From: a virus | DNA length: 56,369 nucleotides | IMG/VR virus record: IMGVR_UViG_3300031919_000004 | Location: 1 to 56,369 of that record | Strand: one strand, 5' to 3' | Shown here: positions 6,174 through 41,047 of the stretch, one piece after another | Numbering within the stretch: the stretch's first letter is position 1 | How the letters are laid out: every line of letters starts with the position of its first letter | Notes under the pieces: generated by a model | Told to the model about the DNA's origin: nothing | Seen by the model: only the letters and a program-made list of their open reading frames with translations | Database searches by the model: none | Translations under genes and position numbers: made by a program

Positions 6174-6240
6174 GCTGGCAGGTTCAAGAAAAAATTTTCA
6201 AAAAACTTGCCATTTCTTGTTGACCATGTTTTTATTACAT
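6174..6240 (+). repeat. Direct repeat copy 1 (promoter plus A-tract upstream region)
   Basis: 67 bases that recur at 7154-7220, 980 bases away, with only two mismatches before the copies diverge near the -10. It contains A-tracts (CAAGAAAAAATTTTCAAAAAAC) typical of UP elements or bent DNA, bounded by an imperfect inverted repeat GGCAGGTT/AACTTGCC, and then the -35. Confidence 0.85.
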
Positions 6241-6248
6241 GGTAATAT
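6220..6248 (+). promoter_or_regulatory. Family A promoter of the amidoligase gene
   Basis: -35 TTGACC (6220-6225), 17-bp spacer, extended -10 TGG followed by TAATAT (6243-6248). The sequence TGGTAATATATAA is identical in the promoters at 24429, 25719 and 41018. Confidence 0.85.
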
Positions 6249-6283
6249 ATAATCAACAAGAACGAAACGGGAGGCGGTACATA

Positions 6284-7099
6284 ATGACAAACAGAACTTT
6301 CGGAGTTGAAATAGAATTTTTCGGAGTAACGAAGGAACAGGTTGCAGAAGCTCTCAACAGAGCTGGCATAGATGTAAGAGTTGAAAATTACAACCACACC
6401 ACCCGGTCGCATTGGAAGCTCGTATATGATGCAAGCGTAAACAGTGCCGGAACAGGTTGCACAAGGGGCGGTAACGAGATAGTAAGCCCGGTACTGCAAG
6501 GTGAAGAAGGACTCGAAGAACTCAAGCTGGTAGTGAAGGTTATAGAGGAAGTCGGGGGAAAAGTAGATAGGACTTGTGGAGTACACGTTCACCATGGTGC
6601 AAGCGACCTCGACCTCAACGGAATAAAGAACATAGCAAAGCTCTATACAAAATACGAACTCATCTTCGATAGCCTCGTACCGGAGAGCCGCAGGAAGAAC
6701 AACAACCGTTACTGCTGTAGCCTCACAGCAAACGAACTGCACAGCATTGAAACAGCTCAAGACCTGTGGGACATTCACGGAGAATGCATAATAAGCAGAT
6801 ACCGCAAGCTCAACGTACAAAGCTTTTTTAAATATCAGACAATCGAATTTAGACAACATGGCGGAAGCCTCAACGGTAACAAAATAGCAAACTGGATACG
6901 GCTCACCCAACAGGTAGTAGAAAAGGCGAAGGTAGCAAGGAAAGTAAATCCGATTAAAGGCGAAACAACTCTAAAGTCACAGCACAGAATGTACCAGAGA
7001 ATGAAAAAGGAACTCGGAATTGATGAAGAACTGAACAAAGAACTGCTTAAAAGAATGAAGGAACTGAATAACAGGCAAGAAGCTCGGCGGTTAGCATAG
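6284..7099 (+). CDS. Amidoligase family protein
   Basis: 271 residues from ATG 6284; an earlier in-frame ATG (6239) lies inside the promoter -10 and is rejected. GGGAGGCGG ribosome site. Family signatures: FGVEIEF at 6-12, CGVHVHH at 98-104 and IEFRQHGGSL at about 187-196, the metal/ATP-binding Glu and His motifs of the glutamine-synthetase-like amidoligase family (COOH-NH2 ligases). It should make an amide bond between a carboxylate and an amine at the expense of ATP; substrates are unknown. It stands alone between its own promoter and terminator, like a moron, and shares its promoter type with two gamma-glutamylcyclotransferase genes, which fits the known association of these families. Confidence 0.88.
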   Translation: MTNRTFGVEIEFFGVTKEQVAEALNRAGIDVRVENYNHTTRSHWKLVYDASVNSAGTGCTRGGNEIVSPVLQGEEGLEELKLVVKVIEEVGGKVDRTCGVHVHHGASDLDLNGIKNIAKLYTKYELIFDSLVPESRRKNNNRYCCSLTANELHSIETAQDLWDIHGECIISRYRKLNVQSFFKYQTIEFRQHGGSLNGNKIANWIRLTQQVVEKAKVARKVNPIKGETTLKSQHRMYQRMKKELGIDEELNKELLKRMKELNNRQEARRLA

Positions 7100-7118
7100 A
7101 CCGCCGGGGGTTTTTTTT
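7085..7118 (+). terminator. Intrinsic terminator of the amidoligase gene
   Basis: Stem CGGCGGT (7085-7091) and ACCGCCG (7100-7106) formed by the last codons of the gene and the bases after its stop, followed by GGGG and eight T. Confidence 0.9.
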
Positions 7119-7153
7119 GTTTAGCCCCAACTTGTTTCTATTTGTCGAAAGTT

Positions 7154-7220
7154 GCTGGCAGGTTCAAGAAAAAATTCTCAAAAAACTTGCCATTTCTTGT
7201 TGACTATGTTTTTATTATAG
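7154..7220 (+). repeat. Direct repeat copy 2 with degenerate family A promoter
   Basis: Second copy of the 67-bp repeat from 6174. The -35 (TTGACT, 7200-7205) is intact, but the -10 has decayed to AATTAT (7223-7228) and the extended TGG is lost. Just downstream lies a hairpin GCAAATCAC (7231-7239) with GTGCATTTGC (7243-7252). It reads as a relic or a weakened promoter. Confidence 0.7.
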
Positions 7221-7308
7221 GGAATTATAGGCAAATCACACCGTGCATTTGCTTGCCCATGTGGGTTCTGACGAGGGTTAAAGAGAGATAAAAAGAGAGA
7301 ACTAAAAT

Positions 7309-7342
7309 ACTTAACTTTTCCCTTTTTGTTGGCATATATTAT
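7309..7342 (+). promoter_or_regulatory. Family B phage promoter upstream of SNF2 helicase
   Basis: ACTTAACT (7309-7316), exactly 16 bases, then CATATATTAT (7333-7342). One of 11 sites with the same spacing. The helicase start codon is 33 bases downstream. Confidence 0.7.
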
Positions 7343-7374
7343 TACGAAATATGTCAGCAAGGAGGGAATTTTTT

Positions 7375-9030
7375 ATGCTTCAAGTGAGCAAGGGACAGGC
7401 GGTGAAACTGGACGGTGAACAATCCCTGTTTGTCAGTTTCAAATATAATCCAATGTATGTGGCAAAGATTAAGTCAATGCCTACCCGTTGGTATCACCCG
7501 GCTGACCGGACTTGGGAAATACCTGTTGAGGATTTAAACCTCTTAATTTTGAAATTCGGAGAACAGAACATACAACTGGAAGGGATTGAGGCAGAGGACA
7601 TAAGGGAAAGGTTAAGAGACATAAAACCGATTATTGATTTTAGGTTTAGAACAAAGCCTTACCCGCACCAAATAGAGGCTTTTAATTATGGCCTCCAAAA
7701 CAGGGTCTTGTTGATTGGGGATGAACAGGGACTTGGTAAGACAAAGGAAGCTATTGACGTAATGGTTGCTCGAAAGGGGCGGGACGGGATAACGGGAGTG
7801 TTGGTAATATGCGGAGTGAACAACCTTAAATATAACTGGCTGGAGGAGATTAAAACACATTCCAAGGAAAAGGCCAGAGTAATTGAGGGAAGCGCCAAAG
7901 AACGGGCGGCTATGTTAAAGAAGGACTTGGGAAAATACTTTTTTCATATTATCAATCTGGAAGCAATACGCAAAAATGAAATTGTTAGAGCGATAGTAAA
8001 ACTGATTGATGACGGGAAAATTCAAGCGGTAATTGTGGATGAAATACACAAAGCTAAAAACGGAATGTCACAGCAGGGAGAGAATTTAAGAAAGATTAAC
8101 CCGCCTATCAAGATGGCACTCACGGGAACTCCGTTAATGAATAAGCCTCACGATTTATGGAACATTTTAGTTTGGTTGGAGGTTGAAAAATCAAACTTCT
8201 ACCAATTCAGACACCGTTACTGTGTAATGGGAGGGTACAAAAATAAACAGGTTGTTGGTTATAAGAACCTTGATGAACTTTCCCATAAGTTGAACAAGGT
8301 AATGCTCCGGCGCAAAAAGGACGAGGTTCTGGATTTACCTGAAAAAATTCATTCTACCGAGTATATTGAGTTGACAGAGAGACAGAAAATAATATATAAT
8401 AATATTCGAGAGGGGATATTACAGCAGATAAACGAAATACTAACATTACCAAACCCCTTGTCGGCGTTAATACGGTTGAGACAATGCACAATAAGCCTTG
8501 ACCTGTTGGACGCTGGCAAAGACGAACCGAAACTTGACCGAGTGGTTGAGTTGGTCGAGGAAATAACGGAGGCAGGGCATAAGGTAGTAATTTTTAGTCA
8601 ATGGACGAAAGTGGTAAATAAACTAAGGAAGAAGTTAAAGAAATTCAATCCGGCGTATATTACAGGGGAAGTGAAGGTTGAGGACAGGAAAAAGATGAAA
8701 GACAAATTTCAAAAAGATAAACGCTGTAAGGTTATGATGGGAACGATAGGAGCAATGGGGACAGGGTTGACATTAACAGCGGGAAGTTATGTTATATTTA
8801 CTGATAAAGATTGGAACCAAGTGAATAATGAACAGGCAGAGGACAGACTTCACAGGATAGGACAGGACTACCCGGTAAATATAATAACCATGATAGCAAA
8901 AGGAACAATTGATGAGCGGGTTGAGGAAATATTAAAGGAGAAAGCAGAATTATTTAGGCAGGTTGTAGAAGGTGAAGCTCGAAGGGTTGACCGGAGAGTA
9001 ATTGAACGGCTATTAATGGAATTAGGATGA
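7375..9030 (+). CDS. SNF2-family DNA helicase/translocase
   Basis: 551 residues from ATG 7375, chosen because AAGGAGGG sits 8 bases upstream; an earlier ATG (7351) lies on the other side of that site. The N-terminal 60 residues (MPTRWYHPADRTWEIP) resemble the HARP-type substrate-recognition module. Superfamily 2 motifs follow: Walker A GDEQGLGKT (115-123), DEIH box in AVIVDEIHKAKN, ALTGTPLMN, and the C-terminal lobe FSQW, GAMGTGLTLT and EDRLHRIGQ. It should translocate on double-stranded DNA, perhaps to remodel forks or displace proteins in replication. First gene of the replication half, with its own family B promoter. Confidence 0.93.
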   Translation: MLQVSKGQAVKLDGEQSLFVSFKYNPMYVAKIKSMPTRWYHPADRTWEIPVEDLNLLILKFGEQNIQLEGIEAEDIRERLRDIKPIIDFRFRTKPYPHQIEAFNYGLQNRVLLIGDEQGLGKTKEAIDVMVARKGRDGITGVLVICGVNNLKYNWLEEIKTHSKEKARVIEGSAKERAAMLKKDLGKYFFHIINLEAIRKNEIVRAIVKLIDDGKIQAVIVDEIHKAKNGMSQQGENLRKINPPIKMALTGTPLMNKPHDLWNILVWLEVEKSNFYQFRHRYCVMGGYKNKQVVGYKNLDELSHKLNKVMLRRKKDEVLDLPEKIHSTEYIELTERQKIIYNNIREGILQQINEILTLPNPLSALIRLRQCTISLDLLDAGKDEPKLDRVVELVEEITEAGHKVVIFSQWTKVVNKLRKKLKKFNPAYITGEVKVEDRKKMKDKFQKDKRCKVMMGTIGAMGTGLTLTAGSYVIFTDKDWNQVNNEQAEDRLHRIGQDYPVNIITMIAKGTIDERVEEILKEKAELFRQVVEGEARRVDRRVIERLLMELG

Positions 9031-9044
9031 AAGGGGGATTGAGT

Positions 9045-9374
9045 ATGCCACGGACAGTAAACGGGCAACTTTATTACAGTATCGGAGAGGTAGCGGAGAT
9101 AGTAGGTAAGTCAATTCAAACCATACGGCTTTGGGACGTTTGGAGTGATGAAAGAGAGGAAGAAGGGCAGGAGAGATTTATACCGAAGCCTCTGCGGTTG
9201 ACGAATAGAGATGTTAGGTATTGGAATGATGAGGACATTGCTCAAATACAGGAGTTTTCAGACTCTATTAGATACGGAAGTTTGAGCAAGTATAACCGGA
9301 GGCGTTGGGGCGAAAGAGGGAAAAATATTAAAGTTGACAAGTCACTTGAACACAGGTATGCTGAAATGGTTTAA
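9045..9374 (+). CDS. MerR-like helix-turn-helix regulator
   Basis: 109 residues from ATG 9045 (AAAGGGGG 6 bases upstream; the ATG at 9027 overlaps the helicase stop but has no ribosome site). YYSIGEVAEIVGKSIQTIRLW is a MerR-type DNA-binding helix-turn-helix, followed by a recognition wing with RLTNRDVRYWNDEDIAQIQE, as in MerR or excisionase-type proteins. No effector domain. The only obvious repressor-type protein in the early region, so a candidate ligand for the palindromic operators, but that link is a guess. A terminator follows. Confidence 0.8.
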   Translation: MPRTVNGQLYYSIGEVAEIVGKSIQTIRLWDVWSDEREEEGQERFIPKPLRLTNRDVRYWNDEDIAQIQEFSDSIRYGSLSKYNRRRWGERGKNIKVDKSLEHRYAEMV

Positions 9375-9381
9375 ATTGGAG

Positions 9382-9407
9382 TACCCCCAAAGAGGGGTAT
9401 TTTTTTT
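9382..9407 (+). terminator. Intrinsic terminator after the MerR-like gene
   Basis: TACCCC (9382-9387) and GGGGTA (9394-9399) stem, six-base loop, then eight T. Confidence 0.9.
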
Positions 9408-9415
9408 GTCTAATA

Positions 9416-9449
9416 ACTTTAAAAACGGGGGGCAGTTATCGTATATATA
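9416..9449 (+). promoter_or_regulatory. Family B phage promoter
   Basis: ACTTTAAA (9416-9423), 16 bases, CGTATATATA (9440-9449). The -35 half is a weaker match than most. It lies immediately after a terminator and 20 bases before the 50-residue membrane protein gene. Confidence 0.6.
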
Positions 9450-9469
9450 TACTGAAAGGAGGTTAAAGC

Positions 9470-9622
9470 ATGACAGAGAGTTTTATCTCCGGTTTTGGAA
9501 TGGCGTTGGGAATACTGGTGGCAATAGTTGTTCCAATAACAATACTGTTCCTGTTGGGAATGGTGAGTGCTTACTTCAGGCGTAGAAGGTGGGTGAAGCG
9601 GAAAAATGCAAGAAAAGATTAG
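9470..9622 (+). CDS. Small single-span membrane protein
   Basis: 50 residues from ATG 9470 with a strong GAAAGGAGG ribosome site. One membrane helix (about 11-35, MALGILVAIVVPITILFLLG) is followed by a positively charged tail (YFRRRRWVKRKNARKD), so N-out/C-in is likely. Overlaps the next gene by 17 bases. Function unknown; possibly a host-membrane effector. Confidence 0.7.
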   Translation: MTESFISGFGMALGILVAIVVPITILFLLGMVSAYFRRRRWVKRKNARKD

Positions 9623-9986: not shown

Positions 9987-10012
9987 AATAAAAATTAGGA
10001 GGCATATGTTAA

Positions 10013-10801: not shown

Positions 10802-10830
10802 GGAAATGAAAGCTCAAGAGGATGGCGGCA

Positions 10831-10966: not shown

Positions 10967-10982
10967 AGGAGTTGTGTATATA

Positions 10983-11206: not shown

Positions 11207-11226
11207 GTCGCTTTGTTATACATAAT
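11193..11226 (+). promoter_or_regulatory. Family B phage promoter, overlapping a terminator
   Basis: GCTTAATT (11193-11200), 16 bases ending TTTGT, then TATACATAAT (11217-11226). The -35 element is the 3' arm of the preceding terminator hairpin. Confidence 0.65.
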
Positions 11227-16313: not shown

Positions 16314-16431
16314 GGATTAGGTTACATATTTAGGAATTATTTATAGGTAGATGCGGAAACCCCGCAGGTGTCTAATTAACTTTTTAATCCTTTTTAAGAA
16401 AAATAAAAATTTTGGGGAGGTATCACTTCTA

Positions 16432-16989
16432 ATGTCAAAAAGTTTGGAAATGTTGGCACGGGAGTATAAAGCGGGTTCTGTTGAGGCTTTTGAGGAACTG
16501 GTAGGTAATGATAAGGTTCAAGCAATGCTTAATCATATTTGTTATACCGAGCAGGTCTGCGGGCATGAACCTGATGATTTGAAACAAGAAATTTTACTAA
16601 AGTTTACTTCGGCATTACAGAATTATGACCCGGAAAAAGCAGGAGTAACTACCTACCTTGGTATTATAGCAAGAACGCAAGTCCACGTTTTACGCCGGAC
16701 GGCTAATTACAACAAACGGAAAGCAAACAACTTCAATATTAGCATAGAGGGAGGACAGAAAGAATACGGCTTTGATATTATTGACAGTAGGGCAGAGGAT
16801 GACTACAGGGAGATTGAGGGTCTTGATTATGTGAACAGGGTTGAACTGACTGAAATGGAAAAACGGATTTGTGACTTATTTATACAGGGTTATCCCAAGT
16901 CAGAGGTTGCTAAACGGTGCGGAATTACTGCAAGTGCTGTGAGGTATTACGTCAAACGATTGCAGAAAAAATTTAAAACTGCCGTCTAA
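16432..16989 (+). CDS. Phage-encoded sigma-70 family factor
   Basis: 185 residues from ATG 16432 (GGGGAGG 12 bases upstream; the longer frame from 16351 has no ribosome site). Region 2: DDLKQEILLKFTSALQNYDP, then VTTYLGIIARTQVHVLRR, covering the core-binding and -10 recognition helices. Region 4: MEKRICDLFIQGYPKSEVAK, then GITASAVRYYVKRLQ, a helix-turn-helix for -35 recognition. Region 3 is short, as in group 4 and phage sigma factors. Transcribed from a host-type promoter and lying just before a family B promoter, it is the natural candidate to read family B sites. Confidence 0.88.
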   Translation: MSKSLEMLAREYKAGSVEAFEELVGNDKVQAMLNHICYTEQVCGHEPDDLKQEILLKFTSALQNYDPEKAGVTTYLGIIARTQVHVLRRTANYNKRKANNFNISIEGGQKEYGFDIIDSRAEDDYREIEGLDYVNRVELTEMEKRICDLFIQGYPKSEVAKRCGITASAVRYYVKRLQKKFKTAV

Positions 16990-20935: not shown

Positions 20936-22093
20936 ATGGTTCCTGAAGAAAAAATGACAACATCGTATACAGTAAATGATTTGTTTTGTGGCTGTGGCGG
21001 CATAGGACTGGGCTTCAAACAGGCAGGTTATATCACAACGGGGGCCTGGGACATAGATAAATATGCCGTAATGAGTTATAAAGAAAACGTAGATGATATA
21101 GCAACACAGGCAGATATAACTAAAATGACTTACAAAGACCTACCAAAAGCTGATGTATGGACTTTCGGCTTTCCTTGTCAAGACCTTAGCGTAGCAGGAA
21201 CACAAGAGGGGCTATTCAGAGGTAAGCGCAGCGGTTTATTTTTTGAAGTAATGCGTTTATTAGATGAAACCAGAGGATACGCACCCGAAAACCTCCCAGC
21301 TGTAATTATGGCTGAAAATGTGAAGGGGCTTAAAAAATACCTTTCAGTATTAGAAGAAGAATATATAAAGCGGGGTTATAAGTATTATTGTACACTTTAT
21401 AATTCTAAGTATTGGTACGTACCGCAAAATCGCGAAAGATATTTTATAATAGGCGTAAGAGATGACATAAAAAAGGAATTTGTATTCCCTACCGAACAGC
21501 ACGACTTTGTACCGGCACTTAGTACAATGCTGGAAAAAGAAGTAGACGAAAAATACTATATTGCAGATGACAAAGCACAGGCTGTTATAGAACAAGTTTA
21601 TAAAAACTATAGTCCCACATTACGTAGTAGGCAAGGGCAGAAAGTAATACAAGCTATAGACCATAGTATAGACGTAATAGGAAGGCTGAATATGAAAAGT
21701 AATGACTGTAATAGACGTGTTTATAATCCAACAGGAATAAGCCCGACATTAACAACTTCACAGGGCGGGAATACGCAACCTAAAATTATAGACTATACCA
21801 AATATAGGGTAAGAAAACTTACGCCAACAGAATACGGAAGGTTACAGGGCTTCCCTATGGACACATGGAAACAAGTAGTAAGTGATAATCAAGCGTATAA
21901 ACAATTCGGTAACGCTGTAACAGTAACCATAGCTAAAGCTTTAGCAGCGGCCATAAAGGGCACGATTTCCCACAAAGTAAGACGGGGCCACGCCTCAAAA
22001 GAAAAAAACGTCGAGTGGACGGCAGTTGCACGCGCCGATTCACAAAAAGGGAGGAGGAATATGATGCGCTATATCCTATATATCCTGCGCTGA
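20936..22093 (+). CDS. C5-cytosine DNA methyltransferase
   Basis: 385 residues; AAAGGAGG before ATG 20936. All main motifs are present: I (DLFCGCGGIGLGF), IV (GFPCQDLS, catalytic Cys), VI (AENVKGL), VIII (PQNRERYFIIG), IX (KLTPTEYGRLQGFP) and X (QFGNAVTVTIAKALAAAI). It should methylate cytosine at C5 in a short site read by the target-recognition domain (about 200-285), probably protecting phage DNA; no partner endonuclease is adjacent. The gene is AT-rich with ATA, AGA and TTA codons unlike its neighbours, suggesting recent transfer. The last 40 residues after motif X are not methyltransferase-like and run through the start of the next small gene. Confidence 0.95.
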   Translation: MVPEEKMTTSYTVNDLFCGCGGIGLGFKQAGYITTGAWDIDKYAVMSYKENVDDIATQADITKMTYKDLPKADVWTFGFPCQDLSVAGTQEGLFRGKRSGLFFEVMRLLDETRGYAPENLPAVIMAENVKGLKKYLSVLEEEYIKRGYKYYCTLYNSKYWYVPQNRERYFIIGVRDDIKKEFVFPTEQHDFVPALSTMLEKEVDEKYYIADDKAQAVIEQVYKNYSPTLRSRQGQKVIQAIDHSIDVIGRLNMKSNDCNRRVYNPTGISPTLTTSQGGNTQPKIIDYTKYRVRKLTPTEYGRLQGFPMDTWKQVVSDNQAYKQFGNAVTVTIAKALAAAIKGTISHKVRRGHASKEKNVEWTAVARADSQKGRRNMMRYILYILR

Positions 22094-24428: not shown

Positions 24429-24457
24429 TTGACTGGCATTTTATTATATGGTAATAT
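24429..24457 (+). promoter_or_regulatory. Family A promoter
   Basis: TTGACT (24429-24434), 17 bp, TGG then TAATAT (24452-24457), with TGGTAATATATAA as in the amidoligase promoter. Drives the 24497 gene and the two cyclotransferases. Confidence 0.85.
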
Positions 24458-24496
24458 ATAAACGTGAGGAGGAAAAAAATTAAGGAGGCAGATAAA

Positions 24497-24799
24497 ATGA
24501 CTAAAGAACAAATGCAGGTAGCACTTCAACAATGGATGGCAATTAATCCGAAAGCACCGAGGGGGCATAAGCAAGCGAACTTAGCAGACAACGGCAGGTT
24601 AATTATCAAGTATTATAAAACGGATAAAAAGACTTTTGACGTAATGGGGACTCAATTCATTATCGAATTAGACGAAGGACAAGACCTTTACAATGTGACA
24701 GTAGAAAAATATAGAAATTGTGATATAATAGCCAGAAAGAAGGTAAGCGGGTTATTCTTCGATATGTTAGACACAAAAACATTAACTTACAACCTATAA
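24497..24799 (+). CDS. Hypothetical protein of the family A regulon
   Basis: 100 residues from ATG 24497 (TAAGGAGGCAG upstream; upstream in-frame starts precede the ribosome site). Mixed alpha/beta, with NLADNGRLIIKYYKTDKK and TQFIIELDEGQDLYNVTVEK. No family recognised. First gene after a family A promoter and just upstream of two cyclotransferases, with a GC-rich hairpin in between, so it may belong to the same pathway. Confidence 0.65.
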   Translation: MTKEQMQVALQQWMAINPKAPRGHKQANLADNGRLIIKYYKTDKKTFDVMGTQFIIELDEGQDLYNVTVEKYRNCDIIARKKVSGLFFDMLDTKTLTYNL

Positions 24800-24852: not shown

Positions 24853-25278
24853 GTGTTATACTTTGCATTTGGAAGTAATTTGAGCATAGAGCAAATGCTA
24901 ACAAGGTGTCCGAACAGCGTACCGTTGACAAAGGCGAAACTTCGAAACTATGAATTGACATATAGAGCGAACCCAGGAGGTAAAGGGGTCGCTACAATAG
25001 TAAGGAAGAAAGGGGCGGTAGTCCACGGGGCGTTGTATCAATGTCCAGAGCAGGACATAAAGACGCTGGATAGATACGAAGGGGTAAAGGTTGGGGTTTA
25101 TTATAAGGCAACCGTAACAGTTGAAACCGAGTGGGGCAAGCTGGAGGCATTGACCTACATAATGTGCAAGGAACACGACCAGCCTAAAAACCCATCAGCG
25201 GAATATATTAGCAGGATACAGCAAGGCTATTGGAATTGGAAACTACCACTAAAAAAGTTGCCTATCAAGGCGAAATAA
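24853..25278 (+). CDS. Gamma-glutamylcyclotransferase-like protein (GGCT type)
   Basis: 141 residues from GTG 24853 with AAAGGAGGCGGTAAGA directly upstream. LYFAFGSNLSIEQML is the YGSN-type substrate loop at the N terminus, followed by KLRNYELTY, VVHGALYQC and the catalytic-Glu segment TLDRYEGV. Such enzymes release gamma-glutamyl groups as 5-oxoproline from gamma-glutamyl amines or peptides. Shares its promoter with a second, different cyclotransferase 14 bases downstream, and its promoter type with the amidoligase at 6284. Substrate unknown. Confidence 0.88.
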   Translation: MLYFAFGSNLSIEQMLTRCPNSVPLTKAKLRNYELTYRANPGGKGVATIVRKKGAVVHGALYQCPEQDIKTLDRYEGVKVGVYYKATVTVETEWGKLEALTYIMCKEHDQPKNPSAEYISRIQQGYWNWKLPLKKLPIKAK

Positions 25279-25292: not shown

Positions 25293-25679
25293 ATGGAAAA
25301 ACAATTACCAATTTTTGTTTACGGGACATTAAAGGAAGGGGAGCATAATTTTAGGCTCCTCGAAGGAAGGTTGGACGGGGTGGAAACAGCGGAGCTACGG
25401 GGGTTTGAAATGTATTCAGTACATGGAATGTTCCCGGCGATTATGGAAGGTAAGGGGGCGGTGAAAGGTCAGTTGATATATATTCACCCTGAATTGTATC
25501 ACAAGGTAATGAGGAAAGTTGACAGGTTAGAGGGATATTCCGAGAACAATCCAGGAGCGTCCATGTACGTTAGAAAGCAGGTCTTTGTTATCAATAGCGA
25601 AGGAAACACCGAACCTGCATGGGTGTACATTTGGAACAGGAAAGCACCGGGCAAAAAGATACCGTCTGGCGAATGGTGA
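25293..25679 (+). CDS. Gamma-glutamylcyclotransferase-like protein (AIG2/BtrG type)
   Basis: 128 residues from ATG 25293 (GGGAGGCGTTACGA upstream; the earlier in-frame codons overlap the preceding gene and have no site). PIFVYGTLKEGEHNFRLL is the YGTL substrate loop of the AIG2-like branch, then FPAIMEGKGAVKGQLIYI, and the catalytic Glu region KVDRLEGY. It differs clearly from its neighbour, so the pair is not a recent duplication. It may remove a gamma-glutamyl or related acyl group. Confidence 0.88.
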   Translation: MEKQLPIFVYGTLKEGEHNFRLLEGRLDGVETAELRGFEMYSVHGMFPAIMEGKGAVKGQLIYIHPELYHKVMRKVDRLEGYSENNPGASMYVRKQVFVINSEGNTEPAWVYIWNRKAPGKKIPSGEW

Positions 25680-25708
25680 GGGGGTTGAAAAACTCCTCAT
25701 TTTTTTTT
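25676..25708 (+). terminator. Intrinsic terminator after the cyclotransferase pair
   Basis: TGAGGGGGTT and AACTCCTCA pair across the stop codon, followed by nine T. Some pairs are wobble or mismatched. Confidence 0.8.
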
Positions 25709-25718: not shown

Positions 25719-25747
25719 TTGACCATATTAATATTGTTTGGTAATAT
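25719..25747 (+). promoter_or_regulatory. Family A promoter
   Basis: TTGACC (25719-25724), 17 bp, TGG then TAATAT (25742-25747); TGGTAATATATAATCAA identical in part to the sites at 6220 and 41018. Confidence 0.85.
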
Positions 25748-25777
25748 ATAATCAAACAACGGAACGGGGGCGGTAAG

Positions 25778-25939
25778 ATGGAAAGACGGAAACCTTGGGA
25801 AATAGAGTGGATAGACAGACAGGGAAGGCCGAACTTGGATAGGTTCATGTTGACAGAGACCGAGCTGGAGGATAAAACGGAGAACATTCAGCAGGACGGG
25901 GGCGAAGTCCTGAACGTGGAGGAGGTTGATAGAGTATGA
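25778..25939 (+). CDS. Small hypothetical protein
   Basis: 53 residues from ATG 25778, GGGGGCGGTAAG upstream, a ribosome site of the same style as in the cyclotransferase genes. Acidic second half (LTETELEDKTENIQQDGGE). Stop overlaps the next ATG (ATGA). Not recognised. Confidence 0.65.
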   Translation: MERRKPWEIEWIDRQGRPNLDRFMLTETELEDKTENIQQDGGEVLNVEEVDRV

Positions 25940-26544
25940 TGTCAGTTATAATCAGCGGCGGGACGTACCACGCAAGGGAACGACTGAAGGAGAAGGGGTT
26001 TAAATGGAAGCCGAACAAAAAGCACTGGATACGGGAATTTACTAATACAGAGAAATTCAAGGCATTTGATACGGATGAACTGGAGCTTGAGGATTGTTTA
26101 GTGGTCAAGAAAAGGTTTCATCGGGTTGTATGGTGGAGAGAGTACAAAGGGGATAAGCCGGAAGGAGAACAGGAAGGAAATAGGAAACAGCGGAGAGCGG
26201 TGAGAATAACGATTCCGGCATGGTTGGCAAGACAGCACGGAGTAACAAGGGAATTGGAAGGGTATATTTTAAGGTACAGCCGGAGAGGAATATATTTTGA
26301 AGGACATGCCACCACGGGCGATTTTGTACGGTGTGCAAGGTGCGGAAGGGCATTAACAAATGATGTTTCAAGGCTTATCGGTATCGGCCCGGAATGTTGT
26401 GCAAAGTTGGGGATTGGCCGGAGCGAATATGAGCAACTGGCACGGACGGAAGAAGGACAAGAGCAATTAAGGCAACAGATACGGCAGATTAGATTAGAAA
26501 CATGGTTGCCGAGGAACCGAGTGGAGATTGAATACATGGATTAA
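25936..26544 (+). CDS. DUF5710-like / DUF6011-like zinc protein
   Basis: 202 residues. The N-terminal 50 (SGGTYHARERLKEKGFKWKP then KKHWIREF) resemble the short DUF5710-type module found at termini of plasmid and phage enzymes, which binds nucleic acid or folds against it. The C-terminal half has CARCGRALTND, then SRLIGIGPECCAKLG, the cysteine pattern of DUF6011, a likely zinc finger. Basic middle (NRKQRRAVRITIP). Second gene of a family A transcript, with its own terminator. Function unknown; DNA or RNA binding is inferred. Confidence 0.7.
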   Translation: MMSVIISGGTYHARERLKEKGFKWKPNKKHWIREFTNTEKFKAFDTDELELEDCLVVKKRFHRVVWWREYKGDKPEGEQEGNRKQRRAVRITIPAWLARQHGVTRELEGYILRYSRRGIYFEGHATTGDFVRCARCGRALTNDVSRLIGIGPECCAKLGIGRSEYEQLARTEEGQEQLRQQIRQIRLETWLPRNRVEIEYMD

Positions 26545-26567
26545 GGGCTAAAAAGTCCTCTTTTTTT
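26544..26567 (+). terminator. Intrinsic terminator
   Basis: AGGGCT (26544-26549) with AGTCCT (26554-26559), AAAA loop, then C and seven T. Confidence 0.8.
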
Positions 26568-26568
26568 A

Positions 26569-26597
26569 TTGTGAGGACGGGCATATTTTGGTATAAT
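26569..26597 (+). promoter_or_regulatory. Host-type promoter with extended -10
   Basis: TTGTGA (26569-26574), 17 bp, TTGG then TATAAT (26592-26597). Drives the membrane-anchored protein at 26630. Confidence 0.75.
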
Positions 26598-26629
26598 TAA
26601 GATACAAAATAAAGCGAAGGGGGAATATT

Positions 26630-27013
26630 ATGAGGACAGTAGAGAGAAAGAAAAAATTTGGCTCAAAGCATGTTTTAATTATCCTTGCAGTATTTTTCAT
26701 AATGGCAATAGCAGGGGTAGGAGCGGGAACGGATGACGGGACGAAGCAGGACACAAACAGGGCATATCCATCTGAAGCGGCGATAGCGGCAGAGGAGTTT
26801 GTTAAAGACATACTTAAAGCACCCGGAACGGCAGAGTTTAACTCTTATGACCCGGACAAAGTAACAGAGATTGAGAAGAATAGGTTTAAAGTAACGGGAT
26901 GGGTTGATGCCGAAAATAGTTTTGGAGCAAAGATAAGGAGTAGGTATTTAGCTGTTGTGAGGTATGAGCCGACTGACGGTAAATGGTGTTTAGAAGAAAT
27001 TAGCATAAACTAA
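26630..27013 (+). CDS. Membrane-anchored extracellular protein (moron-like)
   Basis: 127 residues, GAAGGGGG before ATG 26630. A basic N terminus and one membrane segment (about 13-33, HVLIILAVFFIMAIAGVGAG) are followed by an extracytoplasmic domain with ILKAPGTAEFNSYDPDKV and VDAENSFGAKIRSRYLAVV. I recall similar short domains in secreted Firmicute proteins, with no known function. It has its own host-type promoter and terminator, so it can be expressed without phage functions. Superinfection exclusion or envelope change is a guess. Confidence 0.65.
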   Translation: MRTVERKKKFGSKHVLIILAVFFIMAIAGVGAGTDDGTKQDTNRAYPSEAAIAAEEFVKDILKAPGTAEFNSYDPDKVTEIEKNRFKVTGWVDAENSFGAKIRSRYLAVVRYEPTDGKWCLEEISIN

Positions 27014-27018
27014 AAAAG

Positions 27019-27044
27019 CGGACTGAAAAGTCCGTTATTTTTTT
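27019..27044 (+). terminator. Intrinsic terminator of the membrane-protein gene
   Basis: CGGACT (27019-27024) and AGTCCG (27029-27034) with a GAAA loop, then TTATTTTTTT. Confidence 0.9.
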
Positions 27045-32684: not shown

Positions 32685-32717
32685 TTACCCTTTAAGTTCA
32701 ATGAGGGTAATTTTTTA
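32683..32717 (+). terminator. Intrinsic terminator
   Basis: AATTACCC (32683-32690) and GGGTAATT (32705-32712), 14-base loop, T-run 32711-32717. Confidence 0.85.
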
Positions 32718-32726
32718 TTGCATTTT

Positions 32727-32764
32727 ACTTGCATTTTGGTTTCTAACGTGGGTTATCTATTGAA
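32727..32764 (+). promoter_or_regulatory. Family C promoter before the ParB-like genes
   Basis: ACTTGCATTTT (32727) followed by GGTTATCTATTGAAGGG ending at about 32767. The block matches 44933 and, more loosely, 42487. A second GCATTTT lies directly upstream (32720-32726). Confidence 0.5.
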
Positions 32765-32793
32765 GGGAACTATAACCATAAGGCGGTGAGGTC

Positions 32794-36437: not shown

Positions 36438-37318
36438 TGGTTGAAGCGGTTGTATTGGCAGGAGGTAAAGGAGAAAGGTTAAGAGAATTAACGGGCGATA
36501 GGATACCAAAGCCTATGGTTGAGATTAAAGGAGTGCCTTTTCTCCATGCGGTACTAAACAAACTGCGGAGAGAAGGAATACATAGGGTTGTCTTGAGTGT
36601 GGGACACTTGAAAGAAGTCATAATTGACCACTTCGGACACGATTTTTGCGGGATGAAAATTGAATATTGTGTTGAGGATGAACCCCTTGGAACGGGGGGA
36701 GCATTGAAGCAAGCGGGGCAAATGATCAAAAGCAGTAATTTTTTAGTCATTTATGGGGACACGTTACACCGAGCAAATACTGACTCCTTGGTATATATGC
36801 ACGAAACCTATGACCCGTTAATAACAATGCTAACGCCCGTGAGGGAAGGGGGAGACTTCGGAAGGGCAATATATGAGAGTTGGGAAAGTCCTTATATTAC
36901 CCAATTTATTGAAAAGAGTGAGGACGGTTCTCTATTCATTAACGGGGCGACTATGATTGTCAACAAAAAAGTTTTGGAAAGAATACCGGAAGGAAAAAGC
37001 GATTTTAGCTATGATGTATTGCCCATATTAGCGGAGGAACGGCAGATTGTAGGATACCGATATAATGGGTTCTTTGTTGATATAGGGACACCGGAGGCGG
37101 TTGAGGCACTGAAAAAAGAGTTGGGGGAGAGGGGAAGCGTAATGTATAAAGGTTGTGATGAATGTACTGACGGATATAACCATTTTGTTGAAAAAGAGTG
37201 CGGTAAATGCAAACACGCAAAGGTAGCAACCTATAATCCCCCTTATAGGGAGTGCGAAGGATTTGACCTATTTGAACTAAAAGAGGAGGAGGAAAAAAAT
37301 GTGCCAATCTTGCGGTGA
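36434..37318 (+). CDS. Sugar-1-phosphate nucleotidyltransferase with Cys-rich C-terminal tail
   Basis: 294 residues. Signature AVVLAGGKGERLRELTGDRI followed by PKPMVEIKG, and GTGGALKQ, FLVIYGDT and GFFVDIGTPEAVE: the NTP_transferase fold used for mannose-, glucose- or heptose-1-phosphate activation. Residues about 237-285 carry six cysteines (YKGCDECTDG, KECGKCKHA, YRECEGF), a zinc-ribbon-like tail not normal in this family, which may be a fused small protein (an ATG lies at 37141 after GAGAGGGG). Likely makes the donor for the 34513 glycosyltransferase. Confidence 0.85.
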   Translation: MMVEAVVLAGGKGERLRELTGDRIPKPMVEIKGVPFLHAVLNKLRREGIHRVVLSVGHLKEVIIDHFGHDFCGMKIEYCVEDEPLGTGGALKQAGQMIKSSNFLVIYGDTLHRANTDSLVYMHETYDPLITMLTPVREGGDFGRAIYESWESPYITQFIEKSEDGSLFINGATMIVNKKVLERIPEGKSDFSYDVLPILAEERQIVGYRYNGFFVDIGTPEAVEALKKELGERGSVMYKGCDECTDGYNHFVEKECGKCKHAKVATYNPPYRECEGFDLFELKEEEEKNVPILR

Positions 37319-37457: not shown

Positions 37458-37644
37458 GCGACAACCTCAACCGGATATTCACCAAAGTTCGATCTTTGAT
37501 GGACTACGGGAGCAGGTACTTCAAATGAAAGACCGGGCAGACTATGAATTTAATGACGAGGATACCAGACTCGCCGCAAAGGCAGCCTACGGGAATGTAC
37601 TGATGGCTATTGATGATATTATCCTCGGAAAAAGCAGGGGGTGA
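37438..37644 (+). CDS. Small hypothetical helical protein
   Basis: 68 residues from ATG 37438, within the end of the zinc-ribbon gene and without a clear ribosome site. FDGLREQVLQMKDRADYEFN and RLAAKAAYGNVLMAIDDIIL form two helices. The start is uncertain, the reading frame itself looks real. Confidence 0.5.
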   Translation: MSGNLDERQPQPDIHQSSIFDGLREQVLQMKDRADYEFNDEDTRLAAKAAYGNVLMAIDDIILGKSRG

Positions 37645-37650
37645 AAATAA

Positions 37651-37818
37651 ATGCCTTTACCTACACCGAAGCGAGGAGAGAAAAGACAGGATTTTATAAA
37701 AAGATGTATGGATAACAGCGTAATGAAAAGGGAATTTAAGGACAAAGACCAGCGATTGGCGGTATGTCATAGTGTTTGGAGTGACAAGAAAGGAGACAGG
37801 AGCCGAAAGGGGCGTTGA
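37651..37818 (+). CDS. Small phage protein with C...C motif near packaging genes
   Basis: 55 residues from ATG 37651 (GGGGGTGA upstream). DFIKRCMDNSVMKREFKDKD followed by QRLAVCHSVW is a short motif I recall at the start of many phage head or protease proteins (FISRCM...EFPD..QR.AVC). Here it exists alone as a tiny protein. Role unknown. Confidence 0.6.
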   Translation: MPLPTPKRGEKRQDFIKRCMDNSVMKREFKDKDQRLAVCHSVWSDKKGDRSRKGR

Positions 37819-37864
37819 TGAGGGACAATGAGGAGGAAGGCCTATAAAAGAGGGGAGGTAAGAA

Positions 37865-37951
37865 ATGTTCACAGAATTACAACAGGTATTACTACTAATA
37901 GCATTATACTGTCTTGTATTGGTGGCAATATTAGAGGCCGGGGGGAAATAA
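37865..37951 (+). CDS. 28-residue single-span membrane peptide
   Basis: ATG 37865 has a very good AGGGGAGGTAAGAA ribosome site. Residues 8-24 (VLLLIALYCLVLVAILE) form one membrane helix. Followed directly by a terminator whose 5' arm is the end of the gene. Too short for most gene callers; function unknown. Confidence 0.6.
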   Translation: MFTELQQVLLLIALYCLVLVAILEAGGK

Positions 37952-37966
37952 TCCTCCGGCTATTTT
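37937..37966 (+). terminator. Intrinsic terminator
   Basis: GCCGGGGG (37937-37944) and CCTCCGGC (37953-37960), one wobble, then TATTTT. Confidence 0.8.
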
Positions 37967-37982
37967 AATGGGAGAGGTGGCC

Positions 37983-38156
37983 ATGAACAAAATAAAGGAC
38001 ACCATTGAGAGATTGGTGTTTAGTCCTACCTTTCAGACATGGATGAGAATAGAATCAGCAAAAAGGCGGGGACTAATAGAGAAGATAAATAAAAAGGTTG
38101 ATAATTGGATGAAGGAAGAAACCCTAAAGGTAGAGTATTACACACCTTCAGAATAA
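37983..38156 (+). CDS. Small hypothetical protein before the terminase
   Basis: 57 residues from ATG 37983 (GAGAGGTGG upstream; ATG 37968 lies ahead of that site). Basic and helical (KDTIERLVFSPTFQTWMRIE). No family recognised. Lies alone between a terminator and the small terminase gene. Confidence 0.55.
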   Translation: MNKIKDTIERLVFSPTFQTWMRIESAKRRGLIEKINKKVDNWMKEETLKVEYYTPSE

Positions 38157-38220
38157 TTTTCCAATTATTACCGTACTATAAAGGTTCAATTACATTTCCA
38201 TAGAAAGGGGGTTGAGTTCA

Positions 38221-38757
38221 ATGGGGCGACCAAAAGAAGGTGAAACACTTCGTCACAAGGAAGCATTTGAGTATTATTATACTCTTGGCCCAGATAGAAA
38301 CTTAAAGAAGGTAGCAGAACACTTCGGAGTATCCCTCCGTTCCGTAGGTAACTGGAGCAAGAAATATAACTGGATGGAACGGGTAAAACAAAGGGACATT
38401 GAACTCGCTCAAGAAATGCAAGAGCGGAACAATGAAGAAATACTTTCTGAAAAGGCCAAGATAAGAACAATCCTCAAAGCCTTATACAATCAATTGGTAA
38501 AAGACCTGAAAGAAGGCAAGGTCAAGATTAAGAGCGTGAGCGACTTGGAGAAGGTTATTAAATTAGACCTTATGCTTATGGGAGAACCGACAGAGGTTGT
38601 TGATAATAGGGTTGGCCTGACGGTAGAGGATAGAGAAGCCATTGATAAGATGCGGGAAGCGATATGGGCAGATGTTACTGGAGGCAGAACGGAGGACGAA
38701 ATACTTGAAGAAGAAAGCGAAAAGGGGGAGCCGGATGACGGAGAGGGAACTGACTGA
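38221..38757 (+). CDS. Terminase small subunit
   Basis: 178 residues from ATG 38221 (AAAGGGGG upstream; in-frame TTG 38212 is less likely). N-terminal MGRPKEGE and a helix-turn-helix (KKVAEHFGVSLRSVGNWSKK, then YNWMERV) as in Firmicute phage TerS proteins, then a coiled-coil middle and an acidic tail. It recognises the packaging start site and recruits the large subunit encoded at 39456. Confidence 0.82.
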   Translation: MGRPKEGETLRHKEAFEYYYTLGPDRNLKKVAEHFGVSLRSVGNWSKKYNWMERVKQRDIELAQEMQERNNEEILSEKAKIRTILKALYNQLVKDLKEGKVKIKSVSDLEKVIKLDLMLMGEPTEVVDNRVGLTVEDREAIDKMREAIWADVTGGRTEDEILEEESEKGEPDDGEGTD

Positions 38758-38944
38758 AATAGAGGTTGTCTATTTTGGTGAGGGAACAGGCAGATTATGT
38801 GGGGATAAAGAAAGGCGTACTCGTTATGTAGAATTTCCTAACGGGAAGCTATTGCGATTTGATGAGGCCAAGAGTTTAATTTGGAAGTATAAAATAGGAC
38901 GAGTGGTGCTGGACGGGGATTACAAACCGAAAATATTTTGTTAA
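38735..38944 (+). CDS. Small hypothetical protein
   Basis: 69 residues from ATG 38735, AAAGGGGG nine bases upstream, overlapping the TerS end by 23 bases. Beta-rich (IEVVYFGEGTGRLCGDKERR, then YVEFPNGKLLRFDEAKSL). Not recognised. Confidence 0.55.
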   Translation: MTERELTEIEVVYFGEGTGRLCGDKERRTRYVEFPNGKLLRFDEAKSLIWKYKIGRVVLDGDYKPKIFC

Positions 38945-38949
38945 AATGG

Positions 38950-38983
38950 GCTTAAATACGGGAGGCGTTTTGTCATATAAGAC
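38950..38983 (+). promoter_or_regulatory. Family B phage promoter
   Basis: GCTTAAAT (38950-38957), 16 bases ending TTTTGT, CATATAAGAC (38974-38983). Confidence 0.65.
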
Positions 38984-39014
38984 AATAGGAATAAAAACAA
39001 CAGGAGGGAGAAAG

Positions 39015-39380
39015 ATGGGAGCTAAAATGGTAGGTTGTGACACTTGCAGGTACATTGGGAACAATTCAGCTTGTGAATTCTGCGGGGACGAGAAAAGCGA
39101 ATACAAGCCAAGAGAGGTATCAATGAAACTCAAGTTTTTAGGGAATATGTTTCTGGATGGATTTATTGAAAAGTTGCTGGAGTTAAAGCTCAAGGTTGGA
39201 GGGCACTGGCACGTTGAAACATTCAAAGACAGTGAGGGCAGAATATACGCTGATTTAATGTTAGACGGACTACAACTGAAGGAAATCTTTGAAAAGATTT
39301 TCATTGATGAAGGGGAGCCGGAGGAGGCAGAGGAACAGGACGAAGGTGAGCCGGAAGAATACACCGAAGTGGTAAAGTAA
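39015..39380 (+). CDS. Hypothetical zinc-ribbon protein
   Basis: 121 residues from ATG 39015 (AGGAGGG upstream), downstream of a family B promoter. VGCDTCRYIGNNSACEFCGD is a CxxC...CxxC ribbon. The middle is a beta segment with VGGHWHVETFKD and LMLDGLQLKEIF, the end very acidic (EPEEAEEQDEGEPEEY). Lies between small and large terminase. Function unknown. Confidence 0.6.
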   Translation: MGAKMVGCDTCRYIGNNSACEFCGDEKSEYKPREVSMKLKFLGNMFLDGFIEKLLELKLKVGGHWHVETFKDSEGRIYADLMLDGLQLKEIFEKIFIDEGEPEEAEEQDEGEPEEYTEVVK

Positions 39381-39412
39381 GGGAATAATAAAAGAGAAAA
39401 CAAGGAAGCACT

Positions 39413-39446
39413 CCTTAATTTTGAGGGGGCTTTTTTCATATATAAG
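39413..39446 (+). promoter_or_regulatory. Family B phage promoter of the large terminase gene
   Basis: CCTTAATT (39413-39420), 16 bases ending CTTTTTT, CATATATAAG (39437-39446). The spacer is the T-tract of a weak hairpin (AGCACTCC with GAGGGGGCT). Confidence 0.65.
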
Positions 39447-39455
39447 GCAGGTGAT

Positions 39456-40883
39456 ATGATGGGCGTATATGCAAAAGACGGATTATACCAAACAGATAGA
39501 AATATATACACGGTGGTAATGTACGGAGATTTCCTTACTGCATGGTGGACGGTGAGCAAGTTTATAACCAAGCGGGAGTTAGAGAAAATACACAAGAACA
39601 TTATGCTCAATATTGTCCTTAATCCCTATACTTTAGATTTAGCTCCCCGTGGTTTTGGTAAGTCAACAATAGGGGATGTTGATTATTGCATTACCAAAAT
39701 ACTCCGTAATCCGGACACAAGGATATTGATAGGCAGTAAAACACAGACACAGGCAGAGGCGTTTGTAAAAGAGGTTAGGACTCATTTAGAACAAAACGAG
39801 GATTTAATTAGGATATTTGGGGGCATGGTTGGCTACCCTTGGAAGGATAAAGAATTTACCGTAAAGAAGCGGAAGCATATTAAGAAGGAAGCGACACTCA
39901 CAGCCTTGGGAGCCAGCGGAGCGGTTATCTCAAAACACTTTGACATTATCATTGCTGATGACTTGGTTGGTTTTGAGAACGCAAGGACGGAGACACAGAG
40001 GGAGAAGCTAAAGGAATGGTTTTATAGTTCATTATTGCCGACATTGGAGCCTGAAGGGGAACTCCATATATTAGGGACACGGTATAACCCGCTTGATTTG
40101 TATGAGGATTTAATCAAGTCTGGCAATTACCGGGCACAGATACAAAGGGCAATACAGCCGGACGGGACGAGTCTTTGGGAGGATAAATTCTCAATCAAAA
40201 AGCTGCGGCAGATTGAAGCGGAGTCTGGTAAGATTATTTTCTCCATGCAGTACCAGAACGAAACGGAACTGGCGAAAGGTTCAATTTTCAAATATAAATA
40301 CTTCAAGTATTATGATGACTACGAGATTGACAGGAGCGGGAATGTATATGTTTCTTACCAAGACAATAACGGCAAGAAATTCAAGAAACCTGTTACTGTC
40401 TATTTTGGGGTTGACTTGGCGATTGAGCAAAAAGAGACTGATGACTTTTATGTTCTTATGGTCATTGGAATTGACGAGGAGAAGAACGTCTTTGTCCTTG
40501 ATTATGTCAGGGATAGGCTAACATTCAATCAGCAATTAAATACGGTTCTACGGTATGCAGATAAGTTTCCAGCGGTGGAGAGGATAGGCATAGAGGCAAA
40601 CGCTTACCAAGCCGCAATGGTGCAGGAATTAAAGAGGCAGACATTATTACCAGTAGTGGGATTAAAGACGGTCAAGGACAAAGTAACGAGGGCAATGAGA
40701 AGGTCAGCAATATTTGAGAACGGCAAGGTCTATTTTAGAACTAATATGGGAGACTTCGAGGAGGAGTTGTTACTATTCCCAGGGGTTGACCATGATGACC
40801 GTTTTGACGCTTTCGACTTTGCCTGTCAAACAAGCGAGAAATCCAGAATACGGGTTTTGGACAGGAGCAAGTTTTCTGTATAA
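39456..40883 (+). CDS. terL: Terminase large subunit
   Basis: 475 residues. ATPase: Walker A LAPRGFGKST (62-71), Walker B FDIIIADD (168-169), coupling motif ILGTRYNP. Nuclease: first Asp in YFGVDLAIE (Asp320), later EANAY and a final HDDRFDAFDF acidic cluster, the RNase H-like fold. It pumps DNA into the prohead and cuts it. Circularly permuted ends, suggested by the map, would fit headful packaging, but the subtype cannot be assigned by eye. Confidence 0.94.
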   Translation: MMGVYAKDGLYQTDRNIYTVVMYGDFLTAWWTVSKFITKRELEKIHKNIMLNIVLNPYTLDLAPRGFGKSTIGDVDYCITKILRNPDTRILIGSKTQTQAEAFVKEVRTHLEQNEDLIRIFGGMVGYPWKDKEFTVKKRKHIKKEATLTALGASGAVISKHFDIIIADDLVGFENARTETQREKLKEWFYSSLLPTLEPEGELHILGTRYNPLDLYEDLIKSGNYRAQIQRAIQPDGTSLWEDKFSIKKLRQIEAESGKIIFSMQYQNETELAKGSIFKYKYFKYYDDYEIDRSGNVYVSYQDNNGKKFKKPVTVYFGVDLAIEQKETDDFYVLMVIGIDEEKNVFVLDYVRDRLTFNQQLNTVLRYADKFPAVERIGIEANAYQAAMVQELKRQTLLPVVGLKTVKDKVTRAMRRSAIFENGKVYFRTNMGDFEEELLLFPGVDHDDRFDAFDFACQTSEKSRIRVLDRSKFSV

Positions 40884-40963
40884 AATTAAAATTAAAGAGG
40901 AATTTGGCAGTATTGATGAGGAGGACATTGAGGGATTAAAGCAAATATTTAGCATGTAAGGGA

Positions 40964-40995
40964 AGGAGAGGTTAAAACCTCTCCTAAAATTTTTC
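40964..40995 (+). terminator. Intrinsic terminator after the large terminase
   Basis: AGGAGAGGTT (40964-40973) and AACCTCTCCT (40976-40985), then AAAATTTTT. The 80 bases between the terminase stop and this hairpin hold only a 24-codon open stretch without a start. Confidence 0.8.
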
Positions 40996-41017
40996 CTAAA
41001 AACTTTTGTAAGATGGG

Positions 41018-41047
41018 TTGACGGGATAATATATTATTTGGTAATAT
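41018..41047 (+). promoter_or_regulatory. Family A promoter
   Basis: TTGACG (41018-41023), 18 bp, TGG then TAATAT (41042-41047), continuing ATAATCAA as at 6243 and 25742. Drives the zincin gene at 41081. Confidence 0.85.

Follow-up and report, generated by a model that had tools for sequence, protein, structure and literature searches.

Do accessory genes that lie far apart in a phage genome answer to one switch? The question is raised by the virus record IMGVR_UViG_3300031919_000004, of which positions 1 to 56,369 (one strand, 56,369 nucleotides, hereafter the window) were analysed. Each of four units in the window is headed by a promoter that carries the same 13-mer, TGGTAATATATAA: an amidoligase; a protein of unknown function with two cyclotransferases; a 53-residue protein with a DUF6011 protein; and a zincin-like protein. 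We call these promoters family A and the genes behind them the set. In several other phages and prophages the same gene families also share one string per genome, which supports the proposal, made in a preliminary description of this DNA, that they form one co-regulated functional set. We consider it probable that family A is a single phage regulon, composed of host-sigma promoters with an embedded phage operator, which a phage regulator would switch jointly.

A promoter string shared by four units

The four promoters are listed with the evidence that picks out each of them; G006 denotes the distantly related record IMGVR_UViG_3300050587_000146, whose large terminase is 57% identical to that of the window.

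6220 to 6252, plus strand: promoter 1; TTGACC, 17-base spacer, TAATAT, with TGG as extended -10; exact 13-mer; among the top four of a matrix built only from G006 sites
24429 to 24461, plus strand: promoter 2; exact 13-mer, promoter scan, G006-only matrix
25719 to 25751, plus strand: promoter 3; exact 13-mer, promoter scan, G006-only matrix
41018 to 41051, plus strand: promoter 4; 18-base spacer; perfect 8+8 dyad ATATATTA-TTTGG-TAATATAT; exact 13-mer, promoter scan

The 13-mer stands at 6240, 24449, 25739 and 41039, always on the plus strand; the window holds these four forward copies, none in reverse, and none of the string read backwards. TTGAC begins at 6220, 24429, 25719 and 41018, with the string 17 to 18 bp below it as previously described, and the spacers between this hexamer and TAATAT measure 17, 17, 17 and 18 bases. 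TGG precedes TAATAT at these sites, which makes an extended -10, and by the established consensus they are plausible as normal extended -10 promoters for a primary sigma factor. The likeness goes beyond these hexamers, and a leader of the form AATCAA...ACGGG is common to three of the four. In their best ungapped 30-base match, pairs of the four upstream regions agree at 21 to 26 positions, whereas 372 control pairs, drawn from intergenic gene starts elsewhere in the window, average 17.4 with a maximum of 24, and six of them reach 21. A 29-position matrix, which includes these four sites and three from G006, scores the window four at 32.6 to 34.3 and the next window site at 14.0. One promoter element thus stands on every member and is rare elsewhere in this genome, as expected of a regulon.

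Looser searches are less discriminating. With up to two mismatches, TGGTAATATATAA occurs seven times in the window against 3.2 expected, a count reached in 6 of 100 shuffles and thus within the range of chance, so that the weight lies on exact identity, fixed spacing and position at the start of a unit. The pattern TTGAC-N15-TGGTAATAT, outside which the 41018 site falls with its 18-base spacer, has 16 matches with up to three mismatches (7.5 expected), three of them exact.

The same gene families under other strings

A megablast search of window bases 1 to 25000 against cultured phages gave no close DNA relative. The comparison with G006, of which the ORFs match 32 window ORFs (some of which are not real genes; blastp, E 1e-4), was made in both directions. 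When the matrix of the four window sites was run over both G006 strands, its top three matches (scores 23.0, 20.0 and 19.0; next match 16.0) fell at 37301, before an operon of an ORF, the zincin and the cyclotransferase (GGCT), at 21657, before the amidoligase, and at 38939, before the DUF6011 gene. Drawn at random among the 45 intergenic starts of G006, these three would come out on top once in 14,190 times. Conversely, a matrix of the three G006 sites returned exactly the family A four as its best matches in the window (20.7 to 16.0; next 13.8). The search of a related phage that the preliminary description had suggested, with a list of the gene families behind the string, therefore leads back to the same units. 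Pairs of G006 sites agree at 23 to 28 of 30 bases, and one of 585 control pairs reaches 23. The G006 element is also found at MerR-like and sigma-like genes and at a run of small ORFs. It contains a dyad, GAATATTA-N5-TAATATTC, which with up to two mismatches occurs seven times in one 20-kb piece of G006 (L082) against 0.01 expected; three of these copies lie within about 120 bp (L082:8758-8879) upstream of the sigma-like gene, and one or more of them lack an obvious -35.

Further lineages were drawn from amidoligase loci in IMG/VR and GTDB genomes, 80 of 523 relatives being kept. Set members were located by tblastn in 18 records with 16 queries, two of which were fragments (27 residues of the G006 fused cyclotransferase and 15 of a DUF6011 protein from L025), so that finds of cyclotransferase and DUF6011 genes are lower bounds. 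In G041 the 15-mer TTCCGTAATATAATA (up to two mismatches) occurs three times, before the zincin, the first cyclotransferase (GGCT1) and the amidoligase, and nowhere else in 34 kb; pairs agree at 23 to 27 bases, and one of 396 control pairs reaches 23. The 16-mer TTACGTAATATAATAC of G004 stands at the zincin and the amidoligase and, with one mismatch, at GGCT1, and every match with up to two mismatches falls at one of these three genes (pair likeness 23 to 26; 3 of 619 control pairs reach 23). G039 carries its string before the amidoligase, the GGCT operon and the zincin (22 to 28; 22 is reached by 13 of 690 control pairs, which include other carriers of the string), and G047 carries an A+T-rich string before the amidoligase and DUF6011 genes (23; 4 of 370 control pairs are as good). 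In Bacillus phage 035JT001 the element TTGAC-YTCAGTAAACTATT is common to the amidoligase and GGCT genes. In Geobacillus phage GR1 the region upstream of the amidoligase matches, at 25 of 26 bases, that of the gene two places upstream of the zincin gene, a likeness that extends to other operons. The string thus differs from lineage to lineage in the sequences compared, and the gene families under it stay the same.

Membership is wider in some relatives. With up to three mismatches the G039 string lies at nine places, including the operons of an SNF2 helicase (named from the start of its sequence only), of a MerR-like protein and of ParB-like and PAPS-reductase proteins; the G047 string lies at seven (up to two mismatches), among them an SNF2-MerR operon and a scaffold operon; and 035JT001 has similar elements before several other operons. 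Single set-to-control likenesses rise to 26 of 30 in G006, 27 in G039 and 28 in G047. The preliminary description had taken the promoter to mark accessory units only, and had named its presence before unrelated core genes in relatives as evidence against a single set. The first claim is not supported, in view of G039, G047 and 035JT001, and the objection applies in part, through these same three; in the searches made, the strings of the window, G041 and G004 were met only at set members. Judging from these arrangements, the family A genes are probably switched on together, and in several relatives the same switch probably drives other virus genes too.

Units that stand apart in the window are joined in other genomes: G006 has the zincin together with fused cyclotransferases, and G004 and G005 (Desulfotruncus arcticus, apparently the same contig as L050) have the amidoligase near a cyclotransferase. 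The cyclotransferases are fused in G006 (L082:18002-18832) and in G039 (L209:7023-8156) and are separate proteins in the window.

Operator, candidate regulators and competing explanations

In the regulon that we propose, each unit would be read from a strong host primary-sigma promoter (TTGAC, 17 to 18 bp, TGG-TAATAT), and the lineage-specific short sequence in the spacer and -10 region would be the operator for one phage regulator, which would switch the amidoligase, the two cyclotransferases, the DUF6011 protein and the zincin on or off jointly. The sequences show the shared sites, their agreement with the sites on this gene set in other phages, and the broader membership in relatives; sigma recognition, operator function and the identity of the regulator are inferred. 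We read the element as an operator because the spacer and the -10 flank are conserved beyond the needs of sigma, and because the G006 dyad is so strongly enriched in a single 20-kb piece, with three of its copies before the sigma-like gene.

A candidate regulator is encoded near the amidoligase, behind a further copy of the promoter region.

7154 to 7232, plus strand: degenerate fifth copy of the promoter region, TTGACT, 17-base spacer, AATTAT (changed -10), ahead of the SNF2 helicase gene
7375 to 9030, plus strand: SNF2-family helicase (PF00176, E 6e-32)
9045 to 9374, plus strand: MerR-like helix-turn-helix protein, candidate regulator (PF13411, E 1.7e-4, 22.1 bits against a cut-off of 21.6)

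The fifth copy belongs to a direct repeat (6174-6249 and 7154-7229, 92% over 76 nt) that flanks the amidoligase gene and was overlooked in the preliminary description. A promoter-like scan match lies in it at 7200, and it is absent from the 18 best window matches listed for the matrix of four plus three sites. Since the strings of relatives precede SNF2 helicase and MerR-like genes, the repeat looks like a decayed fifth member; the SNF2-MerR pair would probably once have belonged to the regulon, its promoter copy in the window having decayed. Alternatively, the repeat may be a by-product or footprint of inserting or duplicating the amidoligase unit. PADLOC matched the window SNF2 helicase to defence helicases, a likeness that is probably due to no more than their common helicase domain, and gave no match for the other eight of nine window proteins tested.

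The MerR-like protein is our best candidate for the regulator in the group of the window. The window, G006, G039 and G047 all encode it, and in G006 and G039 its own gene carries the string. The window protein passes the PF13411 cut-off, below which its G039 relative stays, and the top Foldseek matches of its model are MerR-family PDB folds (E 0.008 to 0.03, none at 0.001; TM about 0.4). A profile built from the four proteins, which therefore score by construction, found weak matches (35 to 36 bits) in G037 and G040, relatives that lack an amidoligase, and nothing convincing in 13 of the 19 genomes or records searched (best 13.8 bits).

Several observations weigh against a regulon of this kind. 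The MerR-like protein is no universal regulator, as it was not found in G004, G005 and L051 (a Desulfoscipio MAG), and G041 gave only a 10-bit match at the end of a contig; the G004/G041 group must therefore use something else. The dyad of G006 is centred at the edge of the -10 and not in mid-spacer, which is unusual for MerR sites. Taken one by one, most sites are no more symmetrical than shuffled letters: of 13 tested, two (41018 and the G004 zincin) have a dyad that at most 7 of 300 shuffles reach, so that the predicted operator rests on G006 and on conservation. G005 and L051 have related strings at the amidoligase and GGCT1, and these pairs are weak, being reached by 9 of 187 and 3 of 65 control pairs. 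The set units of G043 have no shared string (their pair is reached by 95 of 1476 random pairs), and the G045 pair, at 26 of 30, was not counted, since an A-rich stretch accounts for most of its likeness. When intergenic starts were clustered de novo, finally, a clean set group emerged only in G006: the clustering joined three of the four window units together with two unrelated starts and two of three in G041, joined no set units in G004 and G005, and mixed the G039 and G047 groups with unrelated likenesses. By eye, no shared string was seen in G042, in G046 or between the two G050 units, and the amidoligase promoters of G043 and G050 resemble promoters of other genes instead.

Family A could also consist of ordinary constitutive host-sigma promoters, free of any regulator and alike because, in a phage rich in A+T, strong promoters of the extended -10 type converge. 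Every family A site is indeed a plausible sigma-A promoter, and the exact string recurs in 12 other IMG/VR stretches, none of them an amidoligase-bearing record, in some cases shortly before an ORF (4 of the 12 carry the same sequence). We regard this explanation as unlikely, because the identity runs through spacer, 13-mer and leader to an extent that few other intergenic pairs of the window attain, because the strings that other lineages conserve on these gene families are different ones, spacer included, and because further copies of the G006 dyad lie near the sigma-like gene. The 12 carriers did lead us to reject the exact string as a marker across phages; only its sharing within a genome is diagnostic.

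A recent spread of one promoter by recombination, together with its units, as cassettes or morons, would make the likeness a matter of ancestry and not of regulation. To weigh this, the contents of the units are needed.

6284 to 7099, plus strand: amidoligase, 271 aa (PF12224, Amidoligase_2, E 4e-44; phrog_2443, E 4.5e-57); ribosome site GGGAGGCGG
7083 to 7108, plus strand: unit 1 terminator, 10-pair stem plus T run
24497 to 24799, plus strand: 100-aa protein, first gene of unit 2, no Pfam, PHROG or PADLOC family
24853 to 25278, plus strand: cyclotransferase GGCT1, GTG start, ribosome site GGAGGCGG (PF06094, E 1.5e-13; phrog_2520, E 2e-27)
25293 to 25679, plus strand: cyclotransferase GGCT2 (PF06094, E 3.3e-24)
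25680 to 25697, plus strand: unit 2 terminator, terminator-like site
25778 to 25939, plus strand: 53-aa protein, matches no family
25936 to 26544, plus strand: DUF6011 protein, 202 aa (PF19474, E 1.4e-10)
26544 to 26559, plus strand: unit 3 terminator, terminator-like site
41081 to 41557, plus strand: zincin-like protein, 158 aa, HELRHH (DUF6782, E 5e-5, below cut-off)
41567 to 41588, plus strand: hairpin 3' of the zincin gene, without T run, read by eye

Such a spread would fit the 92% repeat around the amidoligase gene, the position of the zincin unit, which varies between genomes (in G039 and G032 the amidoligase lies beside TerL, in the place of the zincin in the window), and the ribosome-site style common to the units. 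This style, described earlier as rare elsewhere, proved to be so: within 20 nt of the start, GGAGGCG precedes 4 of 7 set genes and none of 74 others, and the broader GGRGGCG or GGCGGTA 5 of 7 against 1 of 74, in a gene list that was chosen by hand. The four genes with GGAGGCG include both cyclotransferase genes inside unit 2, which have no family A promoters of their own. As also described, every unit ends in its own terminator or hairpin, units 1 to 3 at terminator-like sites and the zincin unit at the hairpin. However, apart from the one duplication, the likeness observed ends at promoter and leader; the codon usage of the units is not deviant; and the strings of G006, G004, G041 and G039 all differ, which would need continued joint upkeep. 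The comparison of codon usage with the core, suggested with the original proposal, placed the set genes at ranks 11 to 76 of 81, and their GC (0.36 to 0.50, against a mean of 0.42 with sd 0.036) does not set them apart either, so that a foreign origin judged by codon usage was rejected and the foreign composition expected of morons was not seen in the set genes. We therefore hold recent spread to be very unlikely. Of the earlier idea that the units were inserted separately, the part that stands is the mobility of the zincin unit between genomes; units 2 and 3, in contrast, keep their position, flanked both in the window and in G006 by the UvsX-like recombinase and anaerobic reductase genes.

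Ribosome sites before GGCT1 in unrelated prophages, CGGGAGGCGG at its start in L238 (G005) and CGGGGGCGG near 10600 in L051, resemble the set-specific site of the window; the set-type site before GGCT1 is possibly a translational element.

Two other features of the window bear on the sigma factor that reads the sites.

16432 to 16989, plus strand: phage sigma-factor-like gene (Sigma70_r2, E 1.2e-6; phrog_1740, E 6e-11; scanned as 16351-16986)
32709 to 32767 and 44915 to 44973: second shared upstream sequence, 73% over 59 nt with the core TTACTTGCATTT, before ParB-like and head scaffold genes; possibly another phage promoter class

Although both the window and G006 have such a sigma-like gene, preceded in G006 by three dyad copies, and one is annotated in GR1, it is highly improbable that this factor reads family A, given that the elements resemble primary-sigma hexamers, that tblastn with the window protein found no relative in the fetched sequence of G004, G041, G005 and G039, where the arrangement is present (which excludes it as a universal regulator), and that the sequence before the ParB-like and scaffold genes is an equally good candidate target.

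Function of the set, precedents and meaning

The amidoligase matches the Amidoligase_2 profile (PF12224), and its EIE, HxHH and EFRQH motifs, which we take to be important in this family, are invariant in all eight aligned sequences. Both cyclotransferases match PF06094 and carry FGSNL or YGTL and YEG or LEG, presumably the glycine-rich loop and acidic residue of gamma-glutamyl cyclotransferases. In the zincin-like protein, H89, E90, H93, E109 and D111 are invariant in five of five aligned sequences, as an HExRH motif with a distal acidic pair. Its model (pLDDT 86) has no significant fold match in the PDB (best E 0.014); among the non-significant ones, a Mycobacterium tuberculosis regulator takes the first three places and several others, and CapP, PprI and small metallopeptidases come after it. 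CapP and PprI are repressor-cleaving proteases.

Going by family membership, the substrate is probably a host peptide, a host protein or a polymer of the cell surface, on which these enzymes would form and remove amide bonds of the gamma-glutamyl or another type. A poly-gamma-glutamate hydrolase is annotated in phage 035JT001. Gene 55 of MN176226 (L246:21246-21884), from a B. subtilis phage with amidoligase and cyclotransferase, carries this annotation and may hint at the substrate chemistry. A wider view, which we hold to be decidedly unlikely as a whole, is that of a dispersed programme for making and breaking amide bonds in many Gram-positive phages under one genome-specific operator. Ligase, cyclotransferases, zincin and DUF6011 protein would be scattered or clustered depending on the genome, the operator would evolve as one, and the zincin may act as a sensor by cleaving the regulator, thereby switching the set on. 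For phage amidoligases, a modification of the host surface that blocks rival phages has been suggested (PMC11318856).

The units also recall other arrangements. Phage morons are promoter-gene-terminator units that are thought to be independently expressed. All four family A units resemble them in having their own promoter, and three of four in having a terminator-like site; they differ in that several of them share one control sequence. A single-gene unit at 26569-27036 (gene 26630-27013, 127 aa with a hydrophobic N-terminus) is not family A and has a different, extended -10 promoter (TTGTGA, 17-base spacer, TATAAT) plus a terminator of its own.

The closest precedent, by analogy, is the ESAS/SAS system of cluster K mycobacteriophages, of which the available text describes inverted repeats just upstream of scattered genes; with one exception, the sites go with gene families from genome to genome, and the repeat varies between subclusters at some positions (PMC3203893). 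Family A is thus alike in having repeats before scattered genes that are kept by gene family and vary with lineage. The ESAS, as described there, are 17-bp repeats with a variable spacer, tied to a translation-start element (PMC3203893), whereas family A is a short element inside a TTGAC/TAATAT promoter, in another phage group and on a defined set of enzymes. Genome-wide action of one phage protein, such as we propose here, is reported in the accessible part of a study on the cluster A mycobacteriophages L5 and TipsytheTRex, which have dispersed repressor sites, the operators and stoperators (PMC9283540). These are asymmetric 13-mers, of which TipsytheTRex has 26, located partly in promoters and partly in short intergenic spaces, whereas family A has four promoter-bound sites and a regulator that is only a candidate.

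Amidoligase and gamma-glutamyl cyclotransferase genes have been found together in prophages and phages (PMC11318856), including the Arthrobacter cluster AL (PMC5513430), and the pair in the former belongs to the same phrog_2443 and phrog_2520 as in the window. As far as their available text goes, both papers report the genes and not a shared control or zincin and DUF6011 partners. Among the matches listed in our literature search (titles and starts of abstracts, subscription papers being mostly outside its coverage), no report of shared control of amidoligase and cyclotransferase genes, or of a link to zincin or DUF6011 proteins, was seen. Genome-specific conserved repeats on scattered phage genes, and the amidoligase-cyclotransferase pairing, are thus already known.

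An actin-like gene followed by a ParR-like gene in G006 (L083:7637-8983; both named by eye) points to partitioning of the plasmid type; an actin-like gene is annotated in GR1 as well.

Where genes share their control, a common function can be argued for whatever their order on the genome. Here shared control ties the zincin-like and DUF6011 proteins to the amidoligase-cyclotransferase pair in several lineages, and thereby offers a testable pathway for phage enzymes whose purpose is obscure. Because the string is particular to a lineage and conserved there on these gene families, the promoter may be used to find missing members of this pathway, and since the cultured B. subtilis phage 035JT001 has its amidoligase and cyclotransferase genes under a shared element, a laboratory test would be feasible.

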